DNA from: Pseudomonadota bacterium
GTDB taxonomy: Bacteria; Pseudomonadota; Alphaproteobacteria; Micropepsales; Micropepsaceae
NCBI GenBank assembly: GCA_016201105.1
Contig: JACQDN010000030.1
Coordinates: 62,001-126,000, forward strand
DNA: 64,000 nucleotides
Direction of reading: 5' to 3'
In this document: positions 26,125 through 29,221 of the stretch, piece by piece
Layout of the letters: every line of letters begins with the position of its first letter
Numbering within the stretch: position 1 is the stretch's first letter
The notes under the pieces: model-generated
What the model was told of the DNA's origin: nothing
What the model saw: only the letters and a program-made list of their open reading frames with translations
Databases searched by the model: none
Made by a program: the position numbers and the translations under genes

Positions 26125-27324
26125 TTACTCGTGACGGAGCGCCTCGATGGGATCGAGGCGCGCCGCGCGTCTGGCCGGGAAATAGCCGAAGGCCACGCCC
26201 ACGGCCGCGGAAAACAGCACCGCAATCACGACGATTCCCGGATCGACCGTAAAGGGCAGCTTCAGCGCCTGTGACGCGACCGCCGAGCCTGACAATCCGA
26301 TCAAAACTCCAATCACGCCGCCCATCGCGGACATCACCACCGCTTCGATGAGGAATTGCAGCAGCACATCGCGCTCGCGGGCGCCGATGGCAAGGCGGAT
26401 GCCGATCTCGCGCGTGCGCTCCGTCACCGAAACGAGCATGATGTTCATGATGCCGATGCCGCCGACGAGCAGGCTGACGGCGGCGACGGCGGAAAGAAAA
26501 GCGGTGAGAATGGCGGTCGTCGATTCCACCATGCGGGTGATTTCCTGCATGTCGTTGACTTCGAAATCGTCGGCCGCCCCGGCTTCGAGATGGCGCCGTT
26601 CGCGCATCAGCGCGTGCACGTCGGCGCGCACGCGCGATACATCGTTCGCACTGGCGACCGAAATCCAGATCAGATTGACGTCGGTGTTGCCGGCGAGCCT
26701 TCGCTGCACCGCCTTGAGCGGCATGACGACGAGATCGTCCTGATCCTGGCCGAAGGTAGACTGGCCTTTGGCTTCAAGGATGCCGACGACGTCGCACGCG
26801 ACGCGGTCGATGCGGATACGCGCGCCGATGGCGCTCTCGCCGCCAAAGAGTTCGCGCCTCACCGTCTCGCCCAGGACGCACACCGCTTTGCCGGCGCGCT
26901 CTTCGGCCGGCGAAAAATCGCGGCCCACCGCCACCGGCCATTCGCGGGCCTTAAAATAAGCGTTCGTCGTGCCGACAATTTGCGTGGTGCGGTTGCGGTT
27001 CAGGCTGACGGCGACGCCCTGGCGAGCTTGCTGCGGCGCAACCGCGCCCAAGCCTTGCACGTCGCGGGTGATGGCATCGGCATCCGAAATCTGAAATGGG
27101 GTGGCCGCGACAGGAGGGCCGCGACGCTGGCCTGGAATCACGATCAGAAGATTGCGCCCCATCGAAGCGATATCGGCCGTCACGCGCTTGGTGGCGCCGG
27201 AACCCAGCGTCACCATGGCAATGACCGCGGCCACGCCGATCACGATGCCCAGCGTGGTGAGACCCGCGCGAAGAAGATTGTTGCGGATTTCCTTGAGCGC
27301 GAGAAGGAAGGCGTTGAGGATCAT
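26125..27324 (-). CDS. MacB-type ABC transporter permease
   Basis: A 399-aa FtsX/MacB-fold permease: an N-terminal helix with LRAGLTTLGIVIGVAAVIAMVTLGSG, a large periplasmic domain (about 50-270), and three C-terminal helices including VGGIGIMNIMLVSVTERTREIGIRLAIGA. These mechanotransmission permeases work with a periplasmic adaptor and TolC-like channel to expel drugs, peptides or lipids. Its ATG overlaps the ATPase stop (ATGA), forming adaptor-ATPase-permease in that order. Confidence 0.93.
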   Translation of the reverse strand: MILNAFLLALKEIRNNLLRAGLTTLGIVIGVAAVIAMVTLGSGATKRVTADIASMGRNLLIVIPGQRRGPPVAATPFQISDADAITRDVQGLGAVAPQQARQGVAVSLNRNRTTQIVGTTNAYFKAREWPVAVGRDFSPAEERAGKAVCVLGETVRRELFGGESAIGARIRIDRVACDVVGILEAKGQSTFGQDQDDLVVMPLKAVQRRLAGNTDVNLIWISVASANDVSRVRADVHALMRERRHLEAGAADDFEVNDMQEITRMVESTTAILTAFLSAVAAVSLLVGGIGIMNIMLVSVTERTREIGIRLAIGARERDVLLQFLIEAVVMSAMGGVIGVLIGLSGSAVASQALKLPFTVDPGIVVIAVLFSAAVGVAFGYFPARRAARLDPIEALRHE

Positions 27325-28010
27325 GCGGCGACCGCCGCGTTGTCGGACGCAACGTGACCGTCGACAAAACGGACCTTGCGGTTGGCGTATTTCGCGATGT
27401 CTTCCTCATGGGTGACGAGGACGATCGTGAGCCCCTTTTCCTCGTTCAACGATTTGAGCAATTTCATGATCTCGTGGCTGCGCGCGCTGTCGAGATTGCC
27501 GGTGGGCTCGTCGGCAAACATCACCGAAGGATTGGTGACAAGGGCGCGCGCGATCGCCACGCGTTGCTGCTGGCCGCCGGATAGTTCGGATGCAGTGTGA
27601 TCTTCGCGGTCGGCGAGACCCACTTGCGCCAGCACTTCGCGCGCGAGCGCGCGCCGCTCCTCCCTCGCCATGCCGCGATAGATGAGCGGCAGTTCGAGAT
27701 TTTCCAGCGCCGTGGTGCGCTTGAGAAGATTGAAGCCCTGGAACACGAAGCCGATATAGTAGCGGCGCAGAAGCGCCAGCTGATCACGCGTGAGCGTGCC
27801 CACATCGGTGCCGCGGAAATAATAGCGCCCGCTCGTGGGCACATCGAGGCAGCCTAAAATATTCATCGCGGTGGATTTGCCAGAGCCCGAGGGGCCCATG
27901 ACGGCGACGAATTCGCCATCGTCGATGGCAAGATCAATGCCGGCGAGCGCGGTGACGGCCGCCTCGCCTGTGCCGTAGACCTTGGTTACCTGGCGGAGTT
28001 CGATGAGGAT
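27321..28010 (-). CDS. MacB-type ABC transporter ATPase, apparent AUC start
   Basis: The coding sequence extends upstream of the first ATG (27899): 37 in-frame codons encode ILIELRQVTKVYGTGEAAVT...FVAV, the normal first strands of this ATPase. No ATG, GTG or TTG occurs in that stretch. ATC at 28010 lies 8 bases after GGGGAG, so an AUC start is the simplest reading, giving about 229 aa. Walker A GPSGSGKST, LSGGQQQR signature and Walker B VMFADEP are intact. Starting at 27899 would delete the beta strand before Walker A. Function is firm, start is not. Confidence 0.8.
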   Translation of the reverse strand: MLIELRQVTKVYGTGEAAVTALAGIDLAIDDGEFVAVMGPSGSGKSTAMNILGCLDVPTSGRYYFRGTDVGTLTRDQLALLRRYYIGFVFQGFNLLKRTTALENLELPLIYRGMAREERRALAREVLAQVGLADREDHTASELSGGQQQRVAIARALVTNPSVMFADEPTGNLDSARSHEIMKLLKSLNEEKGLTIVLVTHEEDIAKYANRKVRFVDGHVASDNAAVAA

Positions 28011-29221
28011 TTGCTCTTCTCCCCATCCGGCGATTTGGTATCGACGACGACCTTGTCGTCTTCGCTCAGATCGCCGGAGATCACTTGCGTGAACTGGCCG
28101 TTGGTGGCGCCGAGCTTCAAATCGTGAGGCACGATGCTACTGCCGTCCTGCAGCCAGACGCGGCCGAGATTGGGGCCGAGCTTCAACGGCGGCGAATTGG
28201 CGACGACGTCGTCGGCCGGCGTGAAGCGCAATGCGCCGTTGGGAACGCGAAGCACGTCCTTCAGATTGGCGGCGTTGATTTCCGCGGTCGCCGTCATGCC
28301 GGGTTTCAAGAGCAGTGAGGGATTCTGCACCAAAAGCACGCCGCGATAGGTGACGACGCCCTGCTCGGTCTTGGGGGCGCTGTGCAATGAGATCAGTTTG
28401 GCGCCGAACTTTCGCGCCGGGTAGGCATCGACGGTGAAAATCGCTTGCATGCCTTCGCGCACCGAACCGACGTCCGCTTCATCGATATCGACGTCGAGCT
28501 CCATCAGCGAAAGATCGCTGGCAAGCGTGAAGACCACCGGCGTGGTCATCGCGGCGACCACGGTCTGACCCGGCTCGATCTTGCGATCCAGCACGACGCC
28601 GTCGATCGGCGAGAAGACCGTGGCTTTTGACAGCGTCGCTTCGTCGGATCGCACCTGCGCGCGCGCGAGTTCCACACCCGCTTTGGCGCGGCCATATTCG
28701 CCTTCGGCGTTGTCCACCTCCTGCGGCGACAGCGCGTTGCTCTTCCGTAAGACGCGATAACGTTTGATGGTTGCACTGGTTTGGGTGAGCGTGGCTTGGG
28801 CTTGCGCCAGCGACGCGCGCGCCTGGGCGAGCTGGGCCTGAATCTGGTCGGTGTTGATGCGGGCGAGCTTCTGGCCCTTTTTCACGCGGTCGTTGAAATC
28901 GACATACACCTCGTCGATACGGCCGGATATTTCGGCGCCGACATCGACCTGATCGCGCGGGGCAAGCGTGCCTGTGGCGCTGACGGTGATGGTGAGCGGG
29001 CCGCGGCTGACGTCCTGCGTCACATATTCGACGCGGGTGCCGCCGCCGAAAACCAGGCGCAGCACGAGCAGCAACACAAGAAGACCAACGCCGCCATAGA
29101 TGAGCTGACGGCGCGAGAAGCGGCCTTTGACGATCCCGCTCAGTCCCAGCCGCGCGGCCATGTCGGCGTCGGGTGCGGGATCGGAGCGAGGTGTTTTTTG
29201 GTCCAAGTCTGCCGCTCTCAT
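27986..29221 (-). CDS. MacA/HlyD-type periplasmic adaptor
   Basis: A 411-aa membrane-fusion protein: cytoplasmic N-terminus, one transmembrane helix (about 40-60), a lipoyl/barrel-sandwich domain (SGRIDEVYVDFNDRVKKGQKLARINTD), a coiled-coil hairpin rich in Ala and Gln (AQLAQARASLAQAQATL), and beta-barrel and membrane-proximal domains. It links the ABC pump to an outer-membrane channel. Its 3' end overlaps the start of the ATPase gene. No outer-membrane channel gene is adjacent. Confidence 0.92.
   Translation of the reverse strand: MRAADLDQKTPRSDPAPDADMAARLGLSGIVKGRFSRRQLIYGGVGLLVLLLVLRLVFGGGTRVEYVTQDVSRGPLTITVSATGTLAPRDQVDVGAEISGRIDEVYVDFNDRVKKGQKLARINTDQIQAQLAQARASLAQAQATLTQTSATIKRYRVLRKSNALSPQEVDNAEGEYGRAKAGVELARAQVRSDEATLSKATVFSPIDGVVLDRKIEPGQTVVAAMTTPVVFTLASDLSLMELDVDIDEADVGSVREGMQAIFTVDAYPARKFGAKLISLHSAPKTEQGVVTYRGVLLVQNPSLLLKPGMTATAEINAANLKDVLRVPNGALRFTPADDVVANSPPLKLGPNLGRVWLQDGSSIVPHDLKLGATNGQFTQVISGDLSEDDKVVVDTKSPDGEKSKSSSNSAR

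Follow-up and report, generated by a model that had tools for sequence, protein, structure and literature searches.

The ATPase gene of a MacAB-like exporter operon in the window (the whole 64,000-nucleotide stretch of Micropepsaceae DNA analysed here) has no canonical start codon at the homologous place, and it is probably translated from a near-cognate AUC codon at 28010, chosen by a strong Shine-Dalgarno (SD) sequence 7 nt upstream; we put the probability of this reading at about 0.6. The AUC start is the best-supported reading of the locus, on the grounds of the site itself, its SD, the spacing between them, the selection acting on the codons that follow, and the AUA start of infC in the same family.

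The operon comprises three genes on the minus strand, encoding an adaptor, an ATPase and a permease, of which the adaptor and permease genes are intact. The MacA-like periplasmic adaptor gene (27986..29221) ends in a TAA codon at 27988..27986, and its product scores 187 bits against the NCBIfam model RND_mfp (cutoff 94.9) and 158 bits against the MacA model PRK11578, under that model's cutoff of 342. Counted from the ATC at 28010, the ATPase gene covers 27321..28010 (229 codons, stop at 27323..27321), and its stop is overlapped, in the form ATGA, by the ATG of a MacB_PCD/FtsX permease gene (26125..27324). The ATPase matches the Pfam domain ABC_tran with 106.5 bits and MacB PRK10535 over positions 4-227 with 252 bits, which is below a cutoff of 966 that was set for a fused protein of 648 residues. 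In fused MacB the ATPase and permease form one protein, whereas the operon in the window has two separate genes. With an ABC domain that aligns along the MacB NBD, and with adaptor and permease encoded alongside, the gene product can be assigned as a MacB-type exporter ATPase. A tRNA scan of the window found none.

On the minus strand the ATPase reading frame stays open over 28136..27321. The ATG at 27899 is the earliest ATG, GTG or TTG in it and lies at the Walker A motif (MGPSGSGKST), and the 79 codons between the upstream stop and this ATG contain none of the three in frame. The in-frame bases around the proposed start read TGG GGA GAA GAG CAA ATC CTC ATC GAA CTC CGC CAG GTA ACC AAG, wherein the ATC at 28010 lies 37 codons before the ATG. 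It was stated in the initial annotation that these 37 codons encode the normal N-terminus of the family while lacking ATG, GTG and TTG, and this is borne out: in the alignment, residue 1 of MJ0796 falls opposite residue 2 of an AUC-started protein. As the ATPase aligns over its full length with MacB (PDB MacB entries) and with MJ0796 (PDB 1f3o), M-L-I-E-L would be the complete N-terminus, and initiation at 28008..28010 would give M-L-I-E-L-R-Q-V-T-K. The codons upstream of the ATG at 27899 are under purifying selection. For the 35-codon segment between the I of LIEL and the first ATG, dN between the window and seven relatives is 0.11-0.20 and dS is 0.57-1.76, with the larger dS values near saturation for several pairs in so short a stretch; the individual dN/dS pairs are 0.12/1.48 (L066), 0.13/1.60 (L067), 0.18/0.94 (L068), 0.11/1.76 (L069), 0.13/0.93 (L012), 0.19/0.57 (L070) and 0.20/0.67 (L080). 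L069 groups near the window in the tree with low support (0.24). We see an alike pattern in the following 160 codons. Given this selection, the codons before the ATG are presumably translated.

Start codons were then compared across two sets of orthologous loci. The first came mostly from the same family, with some other groups, at a threshold of 52% ATPase identity; the second came from the same class, at a threshold of E <= 1e-78. Loci ending too near the start were left out, as were duplicates and weaker paralogues. A start was called canonical where an in-frame ATG, GTG or TTG occurred in the 60 nt before the conserved LIEL. In the first set, 79 of the 81 distinct loci (the window included) have a canonical start, the nearest codon being ATG in 59, GTG in 15 and TTG in 5, and two have none. 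The second set adds 24 loci and brings the count to 103 of 105 (80 ATG, 18 GTG and 5 TTG), again with two exceptions, namely the window, with AUC, and locus L085 of genome G078, with AUA. With a canonical start in 103 of the 105 orthologues, its absence from the window is more than a chance matter. As a control, the permease start was looked for between 60 nt upstream and 15 nt downstream of the aligned first residue, and a canonical codon was seen in 78 of 78 readable loci, 3 of the 81 being unreadable.

The comparison also yields points against the AUC start. Relatives are likely to start at -9 relative to LIEL or further upstream (-9 to -48, mostly -15 to -21), and 5 of the 105 loci have a GTG or TTG at -3. 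The column of the AUC, -6, holds ATC in 1 of 105 loci and CCN in 78, and none of the 105 has a canonical start there. All near relatives that were read have canonical starts, including the sister locus L066 (ATG at -18), and an ATG out of the ATPase frame lies 16 nt upstream of the AUC. Relatives do not conserve a near-cognate codon, as the AUA of G078 sits at another column. The initial annotation would have given up its AUC reading had relatives carried ATG at the same place and reads shown a base error; ATG, GTG or TTG codons do occur close by in relatives, but none at the identical codon.

Among the AUN codons in frame, the ATC at 28010 fits best as a start by its sequence context. It is preceded by UGGGGAGA (28018..28025) at a spacing of 7 nt, with a pairing energy of -7.8 kcal/mol, in agreement with the earlier claim of an SD at good spacing within the end of the adaptor gene, with which the ATPase gene would overlap by 25 nt (27986..28010). 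The ATC at 28004, within the LIEL codons, shares this SD at a spacing of 13 nt (-7.5 kcal/mol) and is a second possible start; the ATC at 28034 has an SD of -3.7 kcal/mol. These energies were calculated with a generic anti-SD, as the 16S rRNA gene was not found in the assembly, even though the latter is rated 98.6% complete; other anti-SD lengths give -7.2 to -9.1 kcal/mol for the window. For comparison, 3043 ATC codons lying within long genes were scored over 400 kb of this genome, and 4.1% reach -7 kcal/mol and 2.0% reach -8 kcal/mol; the background for gene starts was crude, with the first ATG of each open frame taken. When the best candidate start of each locus is considered, an SD as strong as that of the window is seen in 6 of the 103 canonical orthologues, and one as strong as that of L085 in 3 of 103. 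Ranked by SD strength among the 105 loci, L085 is fourth and the window eighth, giving a rank-sum p of 0.0055 for a test which, like AUC as the scored codon, was chosen after the sequences had been seen. An 8-bp hairpin between the SD and the start was considered as a coupling device and dropped, the start-region energy of the window being only 47th of 105; the z-score of this SD-AUC hairpin is -1.35 in 46 nt and -2.26 in a 31-nt cut chosen around the hairpin.

The second exception, L085, is one and the same locus as L046 and L097 (G078:C55, JAFKEW010000057.1). Its start region reads GCC ATA ACA CCG CCG CTC ATC, and the ATA overlaps the TAA of the adaptor gene at the point where many relatives carry ATGA. 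The ATA stands behind the SD CGGGAGGG, with an energy of -10.8 kcal/mol. A GTG 10 codons after the ATA is a point against counting L085 as a second case.

The family offers a reference for near-cognate initiation in its infC gene, which was found in 58 of 60 family genomes. In the genome under study, infC has no ATG, GTG or TTG before the IF3 N-terminus and carries an ATA behind CAAAGGAGAG, so that initiation at an AUN codon is most likely by its sequence. We looked at 31 infC loci and counted 26, the own genome included, leaving out 5 that lack the N-terminal motif used. An ATA lies 15-17 codons before this motif in 26 of 26 genes, and the AGGAGA-like SD in front of it reaches -7.3 kcal/mol or stronger in 25 of them, while L210 did not score. 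In 18 of 26 the open frame has no canonical codon before the motif, and 8 have one, either up- or downstream of the ATA. The loci in question are L186 (G000:C40, near 20 kb), L184, L185, L187 and L189-L215. Since all 26 infC genes counted share this AUA start, near-cognate initiation probably works in this bacterium.

Alternative explanations of the missing start were weighed against this reading. The genome is a draft of 84 contigs, and one wrong consensus base could hide an ordinary start at or near the site: several codons there are one substitution away from a start codon, and the canonical starts in 103 of 105 orthologous loci would be in keeping with such an error. Against this, consensus substitutions in drafts are rarer than near-cognate starts, and one would not expect errors arising at random to hit just the two orthologues with strong SDs. 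A survey of 464 kb of the genome flagged 19 of 340 predicted coding segments as having no start near the predicted onset. Nine of these (the ATPase and 8 others) were scanned with Pfam, and 5 have a domain, which precedes the first start only in the ATPase; of the 8 others, 4 have no domain and 4 have one well after the first start. In the remaining 10 of 19, judged by eye, the start follows 12-27 codons after the predicted onset. No other gene with a domain before its first start was found by this survey, whose power is limited and which is no direct measure of the error rate. Taken together, we consider a substitution error unlikely. Loss of the start in earnest, with the ATPase hardly made and the operon decaying, is a reading to which we give little credence: near-cognate starts can be very weak in E. 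coli, which would suit it, but the ATPase has an open frame and a complete domain, its dN falls well short of dS, and both the adaptor and permease genes are intact.

Two further explanations turn on the out-of-frame ATG, which the initial annotation placed at 28027 and which in fact occupies 28026..28024. This ATG lies near the start positions of relatives and misses the ATPase frame by exactly one base; its own frame closes at 27934. The bases 'GAG CAA' also occur in the start regions of both L014 and L015, and the match in L016 is GAG CAG. An ancestral ATG may accordingly have been put out of frame by a one-base indel, whether genuine or introduced in assembly, and the sister locus L066 has an adaptor-ATPase frame relation different from that of the window, which shows that indels do occur between the adaptor and ATPase genes. 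However, were the indel undone, the adaptor would lose its present stop and run to 27934, and because the overlap with the ATPase would then be longer than in any of the 103 loci read, this explanation is disfavoured. The adaptor TAA at 27988..27986 already falls 16 nt inside the LIEL codons, an arrangement shared with L070, L080 and L172 (4 of 103 loci with the window), and in none of the 103 loci with the stop read does it lie deeper; despite the long overlap, these three relatives have a canonical ATPase start at a more upstream position. The frame relation of the window is moreover common to 64 of 103 loci (the window included), and the SD before the ATG at 28026 is weak (-1.1 kcal/mol). 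A one-base insertion was our first reading of the locus, in view of an ATG where relatives start, and was weakened by comparing the frame and stop of the adaptor with those of relatives; a frameshift joining the nearby ATG to the frame, which the initial annotation had named as grounds for abandoning the AUC, is likewise disfavoured by the adaptor's reading frame. An indel is in our judgement quite improbable. We also considered whether the adaptor stop at +16, which L070 and L080 share, marks an architecture held in common with the window, and rejected this: the tree puts both loci in another clade, so the equal stop position is no proof of common descent and serves only to illustrate a comparable overlap. 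Lastly, the ribosome might start at the ATG at 28026 and make a +1 shift at AGA-AGA, or shift by -1 out of the adaptor. AGA makes up 2.7% of arginine codons here, and the AGA-AGA pair follows closely after the ATG. The same weak SD speaks against such a start, a classical slippery heptamer was not seen in the overlap by eye, a periplasmic adaptor end fused to a cytosolic ATPase would make no topological sense, and 103 of 105 orthologous loci are canonical and need no shift; we hold frameshifting to be highly improbable.

If the AUC start is correct, an ancestral ATG or GTG start would have been lost in the lineage of the window, and initiation would occur with fMet at the AUC at 28010. As the AUC and its SD are both within the terminal part of the adaptor gene, ribosomes finishing the adaptor may supply or expose the site. 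This idea of coupling draws on the ATGA overlaps of many relatives and on published work on termination-reinitiation (PMC6728339, in the part available). The likeness to that system is that ATGA occurs at the adaptor/ATPase junction in many relatives and at the ATPase/permease junction in the window; the difference is that in the window the ATPase start precedes the adaptor stop by 22 nt, with no ATGA.

Reportedly, pcnB of E. coli has an AUU start, near-cognate like that of the ATPase proposed here. In the excerpts available of the published studies, the infC start is ATT in E. coli and ATC in Streptomyces (PMC5472188), and AUA in S. aureus (PMC13009471), thereby resembling the window in having an AUN codon behind a strong SD. 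However, infC is autoregulated and its AUN start is conserved, whereas the ATPase start in the window belongs to an exporter gene and is not conserved. In Streptomyces, sigR is similar in that it has a non-canonical start and in that the products of its operon need balance, and IF3, which represses non-canonical starts, represses the sigR start; it differs in that the codon is GTC rather than ATC, is present in 32 of 34 Streptomyces species, and has been shown by experiment (all from the available portion of PMC5472188). The genes ccpN (AUA) and cvfC1 (AUU) of S. aureus also combine a near-cognate start with an extended SD. They differ from the ATPase in being supported by ribosome profiling and reporters, and an overlap with an upstream gene is not described in the accessible part of the paper (PMC13009471). 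According to the same excerpt, the output of AUA and AUU starts in S. aureus is about 10% of that of AUG when the medium is poor, and ccpN reaches up to 30% in rich medium. By analogy with these published near-cognate starts, we infer that ATPase output would be lower than that of its pump partners, as had been proposed in the initial annotation, and that it would be low and IF3-sensitive. Among the papers listed by our literature searches, none concerned a MacB with a non-canonical start and few were relevant to bacterial AUC or AUA starts; PMC11497404 offered nothing of use on AUN starts.

Overall, an AUC-started ATPase would be a further instance of the known near-cognate starts, with a possible recurrence in G078. 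A wider proposal, which we find doubtful and put forward tentatively, is that on two or more independent occasions in this family a MacAB-like exporter ATPase has exchanged a normal start for an IF3-checked AUN codon behind a strong SD (AUC here, AUA in G078), making the ATPase the limiting subunit and tying pump assembly to the level of IF3, whose own gene has a conserved AUA start in the family. The AUA of infC serves as an in-genome reference for near-cognate initiation. For annotation, gene finders that accept ATG, GTG and TTG only would cut the ATPase at Walker A or miss the gene. In short, if the AUC start is real, an exporter subunit would join the few known near-cognate starts, which would suggest control of the subunit ratio by IF3.
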